Both the position numbers and the translations under genes were made by a program. The notes beneath the pieces were generated by a model, which ran no database searches, was not told where the DNA came from, and saw nothing but the letters and a program-made list of their open reading frames with translations. From NCBI RefSeq assembly GCF_000821065.1, contig NZ_CDGG01000001.1:1240001-1304000 (forward strand): DNA of 64,000 nt, read 5' to 3'. This stretch comes from Oceanobacillus oncorhynchi. Its GTDB lineage: Bacteria > Bacillota > Bacilli > Bacillales > Amphibacillaceae. Each line of letters begins with the position of its first letter. Position 1 is the first letter of the stretch. This document shows, in pieces, positions 6,259 to 13,479 of the stretch.

Positions 6259-7110
6259 ATGTACAGATCTTGGCTATTTGTTCCGGGGAATCAAGAAAAA
6301 AATCTGAACAAAGTAAAGGATTTGCAGGCCGATGTGATTATTTATGATTTGGAAGATGCTGTACCAGTGAATGAAAAAGTAATAGCCAGACAAAAAGTGA
6401 AAGAAGCAATTTGTAAGATAAGTCACCAAGTGAATTTTGTACGTGTGAATGATTTAACTACACCCTATTTTATAGAAGACTTAGATGGAATTATCGCAGA
6501 GAATCTTTCTGGAATCGTTCTGCCTAAAGTGAATAATCAACACGATATTATCATCGCAGCTTATTTGCTTGGACAAATGGAGGAAAAGTATGGTTTAGAA
6601 CAAGGCTCGCTTGCTATCGTACCATTAATTGAAACCGCTTCCGGAATTCAGAATGTCCAAGAAATCGTCTGTGCGAGTAATCGGATTTTATGTCTCTGTT
6701 TCGGAGCGGAGGATTTTATGCTTGACCTTCATATCGATGCAGGGGAAATGGGAGAAAATTTAATGTATGCCCGAACACAGCTGGTGATTGCTTCCAAAGC
6801 GGCGGGAAAAGAACCGCCGGTTGATTCTGTTTTTGTCGATTTTAAAGATGAAGCAGGATTAGAAAAGGAAACGGAACGTGCAAAGTGTGCTGGATTCCAA
6901 GGGAAGCTGCTTATTCATCCAAAACAAATTGCGCCTGTACATCATGCTTTTTCACCTACACGTGAGCAGGTGAAAGAAGCAGAAAAAATTATTGCTTTGT
7001 ATGGAGAATCTTTAAAAAATGGAAAAGGTGCGCTTGAGATAGATGGAAAGATGATTGACGCTCCCGTGGTTGAACGGGCAAGAAAGGTACTATCACATGC
7101 TGACATGTAA
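6259..7110 (+). CDS. CitE/HpcH-family acyl-CoA lyase, putative citramalyl-CoA lyase
   Basis: A 283-residue CitE-like lyase. ATG at 6259 is chosen because AAAGGAG lies at 6244-6250; a longer frame from TTG 6184 would start inside the operator. Family motifs appear in order: SWLFVPGN, IYDLEDAVP, FVRVN, GIVLPK, VPLIETASGI, CFGAEDF and GKLLIHPKQI, supplying the acidic residues that bind magnesium. Enzymes of this group cleave citramalyl-CoA, malyl-CoA or beta-methylmalyl-CoA. Beside a class III CoA-transferase and a MaoC hydratase it fits the third step of itaconate breakdown, giving acetyl-CoA and pyruvate. The assignment within the family is inference. Confidence 0.85.
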   Translation: MYRSWLFVPGNQEKNLNKVKDLQADVIIYDLEDAVPVNEKVIARQKVKEAICKISHQVNFVRVNDLTTPYFIEDLDGIIAENLSGIVLPKVNNQHDIIIAAYLLGQMEEKYGLEQGSLAIVPLIETASGIQNVQEIVCASNRILCLCFGAEDFMLDLHIDAGEMGENLMYARTQLVIASKAAGKEPPVDSVFVDFKDEAGLEKETERAKCAGFQGKLLIHPKQIAPVHHAFSPTREQVKEAEKIIALYGESLKNGKGALEIDGKMIDAPVVERARKVLSHADM

Positions 7111-7143
7111 TGAACGAATGTTTTTGAAATGGGGGAGAAGGAT

Positions 7144-8295
7144 ATGTTGCCATTAGAAGGAATCACCGTTGTTGCTTTAGAGCAGGCAATCGCCGCTCCA
7201 TTTGCTACGAGGCAATTGGCAGATTTAGGAGCGAGAGTCATTAAAATAGAAAGACCGGATGTCGGGGACTTTGCCAGGGGCTATGATTCTACGGTGAATG
7301 GAATGTCCAGCCATTTTGTTTGGTGCAACCGTTCAAAAGAGTCAATGGAGCTTGATTTGAAATCAGATGAAGGAAAAGAGATACTTGGCAGTTTAATAGA
7401 AAAAGCGGATGTATTGATTCAAAATTTAGCTCCTGGAGCAATTGAAAGAATGGGCTTTGCACCGGAAGAGTTAACTGCGAAGCATCCCGAATTGATTGTG
7501 TGCAGTATATCAGGATATGGAAAAGGCGGTACTTATGAGCAGAAGAAAGCATATGACCTCTTGGTTCAATGTGAGGCGGGACTTGTTTCAATAACTGGCA
7601 GTGAAGAAACACCGTCAAAAGCGGGGATTTCAATCGCGGATATTGCTGCTGGAATGTATGCCTATACGGGCGTTCTGACTGCTTTATTTAATCGGATGAA
7701 AACAGGAAAAGGAACTGTTATGGAGGTATCGATGCTTGAAGCACTTGGCGAGTGGATGGGCTATCCTGCTTATTATGCGGCATATGGCGGAAAAGAGCCT
7801 CAACGGTCCGGAGCCAGCCACGCAACGATTTATCCGTATGGACCATTTCTATGCGGAGATAACAAAACTGTATTTATCGGATTACAAAATGAAAGAGAAT
7901 GGAAGCGCTTTTGCGAGTTTGTTTTAGAAGATTCCGCTTTAAGTGAAGACGCTAGATTTATTACAAATACGGATCGGTCAACAAACAAAGACGAATTAAA
8001 ACAGATTATTGAAGCAAAGTTTGAAGCATTTACATCCGATCAAATTATTGAAAGGGTAGAAGAGGCCAAAATAGCCAATGCACGGTTAAATACGATGAAG
8101 GATTTCTTCGCGCATCCACAGCTTACAGCACGCAAGCGTTGGAAGCAGGTCCAGACACCGCAAGGAGAAATTGTTGCACTAAAACCGCCGGTGACTATGG
8201 CCGGAATAGATTATGTGATGAATCCGATACCAGACCTTGGCGAGCATACCGAAGCTATTTTAGAAGAGCTGGGATTGGCACAATCAAAAATATAA
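7144..8295 (+). CDS. Class III (CaiB/BaiF) CoA-transferase, putative itaconate-type CoA-transferase
   Basis: A 383-residue family III CoA-transferase that moves CoA from a donor such as succinyl-CoA onto a carboxylic acid. The catalytic aspartate is D138 in AYDLLVQCEAGLVSITG, and the N-terminal GITVVALEQAIAAPFATRQLADLGA stretch (longer than quoted motifs elsewhere) is typical of the CoA-binding fold. ATG at 7144 follows GGGGGAGAAGG; an in-frame ATG at 7129 overlaps that ribosome site. Directly downstream of the CitE gene and upstream of MaoC, this matches the itaconate CoA-transferase position in Pseudomonas clusters. Mesaconate, methylsuccinate or citramalate are alternative substrates. Confidence 0.85.
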   Translation: MLPLEGITVVALEQAIAAPFATRQLADLGARVIKIERPDVGDFARGYDSTVNGMSSHFVWCNRSKESMELDLKSDEGKEILGSLIEKADVLIQNLAPGAIERMGFAPEELTAKHPELIVCSISGYGKGGTYEQKKAYDLLVQCEAGLVSITGSEETPSKAGISIADIAAGMYAYTGVLTALFNRMKTGKGTVMEVSMLEALGEWMGYPAYYAAYGGKEPQRSGASHATIYPYGPFLCGDNKTVFIGLQNEREWKRFCEFVLEDSALSEDARFITNTDRSTNKDELKQIIEAKFEAFTSDQIIERVEEAKIANARLNTMKDFFAHPQLTARKRWKQVQTPQGEIVALKPPVTMAGIDYVMNPIPDLGEHTEAILEELGLAQSKI

Positions 8296-8313
8296 TAAAA
8301 TGGAGGAATAATA

Positions 8314-8841
8314 ATGAGTGTAAAGGAAGGCTGGAAAGGCAGATTTTATGAGGATTTTGAAGTTGGAGATATTTATTCGCATCCATTAGGAAGAACGGTA
8401 ACAAAAACAGATAATATTTATATGACCTTATTGACACAGAATACAAACCCGATTCATTTTGATGATTATTATTCGGAGCAGACTGAATTTGGAAAACCGC
8501 TCGTCGATTCTACATTTACCATAGCTTTAGTAACAGGACAGTCTGTGACGGATCTCTCCCAGAATGCCATGGCAAACTTAGGCTGGGATGAAGTTCGTCT
8601 GCCTAATCCGGTGTTTGAGGGAGATACGATTTATTCCTATTCGGAAGTGCAGGATAAGCGCGAATCGAAATCCCGTCCGAATGTTGGCATTGTCAATGTT
8701 AAAACAAGCGGTTATAACCAAAGAGGAGAAGTTGTGATTACATTTAAACGAACATTTATGATTTATAAAAAGGATTCTGCCCCGACAAGAGAGAATAAAT
8801 TATTGGAACAGGTACTGGAAAAAGAACTGCAAAACAAATAG
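8314..8841 (+). CDS. MaoC-family enoyl-CoA hydratase, putative itaconyl/mesaconyl-CoA hydratase
   Basis: A 175-residue hot-dog-fold hydratase. The N-terminal YEDFEVGD motif and the hydratase dyad region TQNTNPIHFDDYYSE, with D and H placed as in (R)-specific hydratases, support activity. GGAGG precedes the ATG. Its length fits the short MaoC dehydratases that hydrate itaconyl-CoA or mesaconyl-CoA to citramalyl-CoA. It lies between the CoA-transferase and the acyl-CoA dehydrogenase, so it would take either an activated itaconate or the unsaturated product of the dehydrogenase. The substrate is inferred from neighbours. Confidence 0.83.
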   Translation: MSVKEGWKGRFYEDFEVGDIYSHPLGRTVTKTDNIYMTLLTQNTNPIHFDDYYSEQTEFGKPLVDSTFTIALVTGQSVTDLSQNAMANLGWDEVRLPNPVFEGDTIYSYSEVQDKRESKSRPNVGIVNVKTSGYNQRGEVVITFKRTFMIYKKDSAPTRENKLLEQVLEKELQNK

Positions 8842-12417: not shown

Positions 12418-12445
12418 TTCGTTATTTTTACTTAGGAGGGAGCGT

Positions 12446-13009
12446 ATGGTTCCGAAAAAAATACGTGTGCCATTTCAAGATGAAACAATCATCCAATCAC
12501 TGCAGGCCGGCGATCAGGTATTGCTGACCGGCACCATTTTTACTGCGAGAGATGCTGCACATAAACGGATGGCAGAGCAATTGGAGAAGGGAGAAAAACT
12601 TCCTGTAGATTTAACCAATCAGGTTATTTACTATGTTGGCCCGACTCCGGCACGAGAGGGAGAAGTTATTGGGGCGGCCGGACCGACAACTAGCAGCAGG
12701 ATGGATAAGTATACACCATTTTTGCTTGAAAAAGGATTAAAAGGAATGGTTGGAAAGGGTTACCGCAGTCAGGAAGTGATAGATGCGATTTCTGCTAAAC
12801 AGGCTGTTTACTTTGCCGCAATAGGCGGATCAGGAGCTTTATTAGCCAAGCGCATCCGAGCTGTTGAATTAGTAGCATATGAAGACTTAGGTACGGAAGC
12901 AATCCGGAAATTAGAAGTAGAAGATTTCCCTTGTATGGTTATTAATGATGCAGAGGGAAGGGATTGGTATAAGGAATCACAAGCTGTATTTAAAAGCAGT
13001 GCCGAATGA
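12446..13009 (+). CDS. Class I fumarase/mesaconase beta subunit
   Basis: A 187-residue beta subunit, equivalent to the C-terminal domain of single-chain class I fumarases. ATG 12446 follows AGGAGGG at 12434-12440. Visible family features include GDQVLLTGTIFTARDAAHKR, YYVGPTP, GAAGPTTSSRMD, GLKGMVGKGYRS and the C-terminal FPCMVINDAEG. With the alpha subunit it forms the active hydro-lyase. Being split into two genes is the usual state in archaea and many Firmicutes relatives of the enzyme. Confidence 0.85.
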   Translation: MVPKKIRVPFQDETIIQSLQAGDQVLLTGTIFTARDAAHKRMAEQLEKGEKLPVDLTNQVIYYVGPTPAREGEVIGAAGPTTSSRMDKYTPFLLEKGLKGMVGKGYRSQEVIDAISAKQAVYFAAIGGSGALLAKRIRAVELVAYEDLGTEAIRKLEVEDFPCMVINDAEGRDWYKESQAVFKSSAE

Positions 13010-13092
13010 TTTGGCGTTAGTCGGTTTAATTGGCCAGGAAATCTTTAGCTGCTCTTGAAGCATGTATTTAAATAGAAAAAAAGAAGGATGCA

Positions 13093-13479
13093 ATGAAAAT
13101 TTCTAAATTAGATCATTTAGTGCTGACTGTAAAGAATATGGATAAAACCTGTGCATTTTACAGCCAGGTTCTAGGAATGGAAGTTATTACATTTGGAGAG
13201 GGAAGAAAAGCACTGCGTTTTGGGGGACAGAAAATAAATCTGCATGAAGCTGGTAAAGAATTTGAACCAAAAGCAAAAACCCCTATGCCTGGCTCGGCTG
13301 ATTTATGTTTTATCACCGATGTGCCGATTTCAGATGTGATAGAGCATTTGAAGAGTTATGAAGTGATAGTTGAAGAAGGTCCGGTAAAAAGAACAGGAGC
13401 TTTAGGAGCGATAACTTCTTCTTACATTCGAGATCCGGATAATAATTTAATAGAGATTTCGAATTATATAACCGAATGA
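13093..13479 (+). CDS. VOC (glyoxalase/dioxygenase superfamily) protein
   Basis: A 128-residue single-module VOC protein. The two beta-alpha-beta repeats start with [19 protein letters not shown] and [14 protein letters not shown]8, the histidine in KINLHEAG and the glutamate in NNLIEISNY lie where VOC metal ligands are found. It most resembles GLOD5-like proteins. It is the last gene of the second operon; a VOC gene also accompanies Pseudomonas itaconate clusters. It could be an epimerase or a detoxifying glyoxalase; the reaction is unknown. Confidence 0.75.

Follow-up and report, generated by a model that had tools for sequence, protein, structure and literature searches.

Our analysis concerns a 64,000-nucleotide stretch of the Oceanobacillus oncorhynchi genome (4.6 Mb in a single contig, NZ_CDGG01000001.1), positions 1240001-1304000, referred to here as the window, and in particular a gene cluster near its beginning with predicted functions in the breakdown of five-carbon (C5) acids. 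A reading of the sequence alone had placed a Gram-positive counterpart of the itaconate/methylsuccinate catabolic cluster of Pseudomonas at 6259..13479. The CitE-type lyase, CoA-transferase, MaoC hydratase, acyl-CoA dehydrogenase, MmgE/PrpD and VOC genes named in this sequence-only reading, as well as the two-subunit class I fumarase which it described as an addition, were all found on the plus strand, in frame, tightly packed and at the coordinates it had given, and each product scored above its Pfam cut-off. The GntR regulator, its other addition, is also present, further upstream. While its genes hold, its limits proved too narrow. Upstream (52-5863), the locus includes a GntR/FCD regulator, a zinc-dependent alcohol dehydrogenase (ADH), a lactonase, an aldehyde dehydrogenase (ALDH) and a second ADH, of which the lactonase/ADH/ALDH part had been missed; downstream (13960-18917), it continues with TAXI-TRAP and DASS transporters. 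The following genes and sites make up the locus:

52..747, plus strand: GntR/FCD regulator (Pfam match); the true start is probably the ATG at 94
897..953, plus strand: TTTACA and operator-like TTGTATCCA-N5-ACAATATCC before ADH1
1057..2175, plus strand: Zn-dependent alcohol dehydrogenase ADH1 (profile match)
2276..3109, plus strand: metallo-beta-lactamase-fold lactonase of the AhlS/GcL family (NF047976, 534.6 bits, cut-off 475; GcL structure in the PDB, 468 bits)
3197..4642, plus strand: aldehyde dehydrogenase, ALDH (profile match)
4739..5863, plus strand: second Zn-dependent alcohol dehydrogenase, ADH2 (nearest to NDMA-dependent/class III models, with scores below their cut-offs)
6151..6199, plus strand: TTTACA and operator-like TTGTATCCAATATCCA before the lyase
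6259..7110, plus strand: CitE/HpcH-superfamily lyase, predicted citramalyl-CoA lyase on a branch of its own (profile match, tree)
7129..8295, plus strand: class III CoA-transferase of the Ict type (57% identity to the PA0882-type protein, tree)
8314..8841, plus strand: single-domain MaoC hydratase, RipB/Ich-related (198.5 bits, cut-off 340)
8898..10106, plus strand: acyl-CoA dehydrogenase of the Mcd clade, Bacillota sub-branch (tree)
10160..11509, plus strand: MmgE/PrpD protein of the Msi (methylsuccinate isomerase) type (tree, motifs)
11575..12417, plus strand, TTG start: class I fumarase alpha subunit, predicted mesaconase (NF004885, 427.2 bits, cut-off 276)
12446..13009, plus strand, ATG start in an open reading frame (ORF) from 12386: class I fumarase beta subunit (NF005310, 264 bits, cut-off 238)
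13093..13479, plus strand: VOC protein (63% identity to the PA0880-type 2-hydroxyparaconate lactonase)
13587..13641, plus strand: TTTACA and operator-like TTGTATCCA-N5-ACAATATCC before the transporters
14005..15030, plus strand, ORF from 13960: TAXI-family TRAP solute-binding protein (profile match)
15347..17368, plus strand: fused TRAP permease (profile match)
17475..18917, plus strand: anion symporter of the DASS type (above its Pfam cut-off; for TIGR00785, 189.1 bits and thus just short of the 198.6 required)

As reference we used a cluster with the PA0878-0886 gene order from a Pseudomonas aeruginosa plasmid (locus L033), to whose genes PA numbers were assigned by order and size, the record itself carrying none. 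Identity to its proteins amounts to 63% for the VOC protein, 57% for the CoA-transferase, 55% for the dehydrogenase, 39% for MmgE and 32% for the lyase. The 175-amino-acid MaoC protein of the window had no tblastn match in this locus, whose hydratase comprises 275 amino acids. The proposal that the window carries the same set as Pseudomonas stands for the transferase, dehydrogenase, MmgE/PrpD and VOC genes, whereas hydratase and lyase come from other branches.

Phylogenies were built after removal of below-length rows (three each for transferase, MmgE and dehydrogenase, one for the lyase). In the transferase tree (57 rows, 55 different), the window protein falls into a 43-row clade with P. aeruginosa Ict (Shimodaira-Hasegawa-like approximate likelihood ratio test, SH-aLRT, 100), outside of which E. 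coli YfdE, Frc and CaiB form long branches. A smaller tree of 22 hand-picked rows likewise placed Bacillota and pseudomonadal Ict on one side of a branch, with support of 92/92, below the star threshold. The reading as a formyl/oxalate-CoA transferase, which the sequence-only reading had named as a refuting outcome, was rejected: a clade of Bacillota, YfdE and Frc without Ict gave p 0.0008 in the approximately unbiased (AU) test, for which the group was named only after the first transferase tree had been seen. The transferase thus groups with PA0882-type Ict and not with YfdE/Frc. Two more distant transferases, from loci L046 and L208 (36-37% identity), are nearer to YfdE. The dehydrogenase lies in a 53-row Mcd clade of a 64-row tree (SH-aLRT 98).

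For the MmgE/PrpD protein (74 rows, 65 different), 18 Bacillota sequences joined a ten-row set that includes the Msi of P. aeruginosa and of Cupriavidus metallidurans, and one further row, in a group of 29 (SH-aLRT 94, below the star value of 95), from which IDS epimerase, B. subtilis MmgE and E. coli PrpD fall away. The motifs ASCRHTH and GSAGT[QE]AAGLWEF are common to the window protein and the Msi-clade rows among 12 aligned sequences and differ in the same three outsiders. Membership in the same fold family, with matches of up to 76.6 bits, would also allow a cis-aconitate decarboxylase, in which case the locus would make and then degrade itaconate. However, the closest relatives of the protein are Msi sequences and it carries the Msi motifs, although the tree has an unsure deep order (long branches) and leaves out decarboxylase rows; moreover, characterised Msi is inactive with cis-aconitate (PMC12290011). 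Based on nearest relatives and motifs, we set the decarboxylase aside as very improbable.

In the lyase tree (34 rows), a 29-row clade (95/96) that leaves out E. coli CitE and malyl-CoA lyase contains both the window lyase and the PA0883 type, but on separate branches. A malyl-CoA lyase reading thus finds no support in this tree, where its sole reference row is incomplete and was used as root. The lyase stands apart from malyl-CoA lyase, as the sequence-only reading had expected, but with its own branch it is no orthologue of PA0883-type Ccl.

Several findings weigh against the assignment of the cluster to methylsuccinate and itaconate. The MmgE protein is only 39% identical to Msi, the lyase, at 32%, lies outside the Ccl branch, and the RipB_Ich (198.5 of 340 bits) and RipC_Ccl (180.6 of 375 bits) cut-offs were missed. 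The dehydrogenase belongs to a sub-branch of seven Bacillota rows, distinct from the Mcd usually found in Bacillota. Since this sub-branch is separate and locus L040 has both types, the substrate of the window dehydrogenase could differ. Lyases from three loci with a like gene set (L126, L147, L159) are nearer to malyl-CoA lyase, and locus L046 retains MmgE and dehydrogenase without MaoC and with a transferase of 36% identity. Both dehydrogenase types occur in one locus of relative G053 (L040:8147 and L040:14853), while the window genome has the rarer type only.

The gene set is conserved in relatives. Among 159 genomes of the family, 25 had an MmgE match at E 1e-40, and 11 of these, including the window, form a group with 65-100% identity, the next one reaching at most 39%. 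In the ten neighbourhoods of this group that were fetched, MmgE, the Mcd-clade dehydrogenase and both fumarase genes are present throughout (with a frame-broken fumarase in L040), the transferase (at least 73% identity) and MaoC in nine each, and the lyase (at least 48%) in seven. Since the set is kept across these ten orthologous loci although gene order is reshuffled, it is more than a chance assembly. Among the best 80 MaoC loci of at least 527 relatives, MaoC is found together with transferase, dehydrogenase and MmgE genes, in varying combinations, in other Bacillota as well as in Acidobacteriota, Actinomycetota and Chloroflexota. MaoC itself is 85-91% identical across eight aligned family relatives and 74% in Rubrobacter, and among the matches listed and stretches examined it also occurs without other cluster genes in Geomonas (L128), Polaromonas (L157) and Ktedonobacter (L116), at 72-76% identity. 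As close relatives are found away from the other genes, MaoC is no specific marker of the cluster. The near relatives include the environmental genera Oceanobacillus and Lentibacillus. Beside two of the clusters (L038:1106-4597 and L242:8695-12127) lie genes for a Cache-domain sensor kinase, a response regulator and a DctP binding protein.

A second line of evidence comes from three long gaps between genes, located ahead of ADH1, of the lyase and of the transporters: in every one, TTTACA and a -10-like stretch are followed by TTGTATCCA (at 930, 6184 and 13619). A further copy on the minus strand (55-63) is located ahead of the likely gntR start, just past a TATAAT stretch at about 46-51. The composite site, with two instances in the window, had no occurrence in 100 shuffles, and two composite patterns, both drawn from the locus's own sites, had three matches across the 4.6 Mb of the genome, each of them at this locus and ahead of one of the three operons. 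In relatives, a filter of box, second half and TTTACA, written after the sites had been seen, returned 15 sites in 12 of 23 partly overlapping cluster loci (473,684 bases) and one in 32 control loci (577,462 bases). Thirteen of the 15 are correctly oriented before the lyase, transferase, MmgE, lactonase, ADH1, TAXI or an ALDH-ADH1 pair; the exceptions are a site in L038 facing away from the cluster and one in L044 preceding a gene of unassigned family. In a scan of the 159 genomes, the composite forms, chosen afterwards, occurred in six of 11 Msi genomes and two of 148 others; the full operator pattern matched 13 of the 148 non-Msi genomes and a control pattern one of 159. Two counts tell against a common operator: allowing one mismatch, the TTGTATCCA box alone is no rarer than chance (four found, 2.3 expected), and 11 of the 23 cluster loci gave no composite site.

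Overall, it is well supported that gntR, the lactonase operon, the CoA operon and the transporters constitute one regulon sharing the TTGTATCCA box, whose operator-like sites GntR would be expected to bind. We consider it likely that this GntR-controlled regulon serves the breakdown of branched C5 dicarboxylates. The lone control site (L241:3193) points at a DASS gene (66%) and is situated immediately beyond its 3' end; the genome concerned, G072, is of the same genus and has no Msi orthologue. CcpA/cre-like sequences, TGAAAGCGCTTCAA (975-988) and TGTAAGCGCTTTAT (13663-13676), come shortly after the operator-like sites in front of ADH1 and of the transporters, with two and three mismatches to the consensus; three weaker matches occur elsewhere in the first 20 kb. 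Directly 3' of ADH2, an inverted repeat GAAGTTTC..GAAACTTC (5865-5888) is a possible terminator separating the lactonase operon from the CoA operon.

Judged from characterised relatives and family chemistry, the cluster very probably serves to degrade methylsuccinate, itaconate and similar C5 acids to central metabolites. After uptake by the TAXI-TRAP and DASS transporters, the Msi-type MmgE/PrpD protein would interconvert (S)- and (R)-methylsuccinate, and the Ict-type transferase would move CoA from succinyl-CoA to (R)-methylsuccinate or itaconate. The Mcd-type dehydrogenase would then yield mesaconyl-C4-CoA, which the MaoC hydratase could convert to (S)-citramalyl-CoA, a product it may form from itaconyl-CoA as well, and the lyase would cleave citramalyl-CoA to acetyl-CoA and pyruvate. 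The class I fumarase is predicted to hydrate free mesaconate to citramalate, which the transferase could also activate, and the VOC protein to open fungal 2-hydroxyparaconate. With less certainty, lactonase, ADH1, ADH2 and ALDH may supply the acid from a C5 gamma-lactone or diol. Msi and Mcd are required for methylsuccinate but not for itaconate (PMC12290011), and methylsuccinate is therefore the best-marked substrate; to this extent the proposed itaconate/methylsuccinate function is supported, more clearly for the second acid than for the first.

The two-subunit fumarase is probably a mesaconase, an assignment suggested by its gene context and by the presence of a separate FumC. Its alpha subunit is the sole PF05681 match in the genome, and the FumC at 4018554 is 62% identical to that of E. 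coli, so that the class I enzyme is probably dispensable for the tricarboxylic acid cycle. Another FumC candidate at 438382 was dropped since it resembles argininosuccinate lyase and the better match is that at 4018554. Mesaconase activity has been published for class I fumarases (PMC4682846). The window pair belongs to the same class I family as E. coli FumA/FumD and the mesaconase-type fumarases of Burkholderia and lies beside C5 acid genes, but it consists of two separate subunits.

How the lactonase module relates to the CoA module is less clear. Both could form one pathway, in which the ring of a methyl- or methylene-gamma-butyrolactone would be opened and the product, or alternatively 2-methyl-1,4-butanediol, oxidised to methylsuccinate or itaconate and then degraded; we rate such a common pathway just short of an even chance. 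In its favour, the same operator-like site precedes both operons of the window, and lactonase and CoA genes are contiguous or interleaved, in differing arrangements, in the window, in G079 (L047), in G074 (L205/L038) and in two Siminovitchia loci. In L047, which has one site ahead of MmgE, lactonase, ALDH and ADH2 separate MmgE from fumarase; in G074 the lactonase genes continue from the transporters behind a site before the lactonase; and in Siminovitchia they are placed after MmgE and GntR. All four family genomes with a lactonase of at least 84% identity, which belong to one genus, have an Msi orthologue, compared with seven of the 155 others. Furthermore, relatives of ADH1 (51-60%) adjoin Mcd and MaoC genes in three places, two of which have Msi too: a Rubrobacter plasmid, the only part searched for that organism, and two actinobacterial metagenome-assembled genomes, in which ADH1 has either no other match or none nearly as good; in G082, ADH1 and a different ALDH stand behind a like site. 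On the other hand, G074 lacks ADH1, G079/L047 retains only a remnant of it and one actinobacterial copy has an internal stop, so that the enzyme is not indispensable, while G115 has a lactonase (63%) without Msi and G070 carries its lactonase genes on a different contig without an operator-like site. In the wider order, the lactonase occurs in 22 of 397 genomes searched, the window genome not counted; 20 fetched neighbourhoods, two of them short contigs (5,953 and 7,110 bases), held no orthologue-level CoA-cluster genes, and an Msi orthologue is present in three of the 22 genomes, each time on a contig other than that of the lactonase. A module able to work alone must finish in a central metabolite. 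Our literature search returned nothing relevant on a lactone origin of itaconate or methylsuccinate.

The lactonase-ADH-ALDH sets that stand alone in Bacillales (L079, for example) are flanked by unrelated families that give no clue to their substrate, and they suit a second explanation, according to which the modules share only the regulator. The lactonase operon would then lead from gamma-butyrolactone/4-hydroxybutyrate to succinate, as the att/blc genes do in Agrobacterium, and the CoA operon would handle C5 acids. The shared operator-like sites and the repeated contiguity in Oceanobacillus and Siminovitchia speak against such independence, which we regard as conceivable, though clearly below an even chance. 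The window has lactonase, alcohol and aldehyde dehydrogenases in common with att/blc, but its lactonase is not of the AttM type (137 bits, cut-off 390) and is joined to the C5-acid locus. Quorum quenching is a third option: the lactonase family is annotated as such, and for GcL PMC11423328 leans to it as the 'perhaps more likely specialized' native function. That a quorum-quenching enzyme is here by chance, unrelated to the adjoining dehydrogenases, seems unlikely, as it is packed with ADH and ALDH genes behind a common operator-like site. The window lactonase passes NF047976, the AhlS-family model, and it matches GcL at 468 bits, but it is placed in a catabolic locus with ADH and ALDH genes. 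In the boldest form of the one-pathway explanation, the GcL/AhlS lactonase would be the entry enzyme of an undescribed route that leads from C5 lactones to acetyl-CoA and pyruvate and is controlled by a single GntR repressor, a tentative idea with the balance somewhat against it.

Compared with known systems, the window shares Ict-, Mcd-, Msi- and Rdo-type genes and a TRAP transporter with the PA0878-PA0886/Cupriavidus necator cluster (Ich, Mcd, Rdo, Msi, Ict, Ccl, TRAP). It differs in the branches of its hydratase and lyase, in having GntR instead of LysR, and in its TAXI-TRAP and DASS transporters in place of a three-gene TRAP system, and it adds the two-subunit fumarase as well as the lactonase/ADH/ALDH operon within the regulon. 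Its MaoC is single-domain and RipB/Ich-related, as in RipABC of Yersinia and Salmonella, but the window stays under the RipB and RipC cut-offs and combines an Ict-type class III transferase with extra methylsuccinate genes. Because itaconate genes are known from mycobacteria, Gram-positive itaconate breakdown is not new in the broad sense. The literature search, with most subscription papers outside its reach, found no description of such a methylsuccinate/itaconate locus in Bacillota, and in a survey of the Msi isomerase 96.2% belonged to Pseudomonadota (PMC12290011). What is new is the lactonase with alcohol and aldehyde dehydrogenases directly upstream, which the operator-like box would tie to the C5-acid cluster. 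Our results extend the methylsuccinate/itaconate route, with a different hydratase and lyase, into the Bacillota, and the shared operator-like sites link a lactone/alcohol module to it. The source of environmental methylsuccinate and the host role of GcL-type lactonases thereby become testable. The origin of methylsuccinate was called unclear until recently (PMC12290011), and a lactone-entry pathway, if true, would name a natural source.

PA0880 is a 2-hydroxyparaconate lactonase according to PMC9875883. Its relatives were considered as a marker of itaconate clusters and proved a weak one, since they are mostly found away from them. The PA0880-like VOC protein matched 73 plasmid records; one of seven inspected neighbourhoods (Phaeobacter) lies within an itaconate cluster, and the P. 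aeruginosa stretch L033 provides one further such case. In the two other family genomes, out of 159, that carry this VOC gene, no cluster gene adjoins it. The plasmid VOC genes (L180-L186) are 59-79% identical, and six of the seven stretches are free of itaconate genes, some of these VOC genes being situated among small cassette-like genes.

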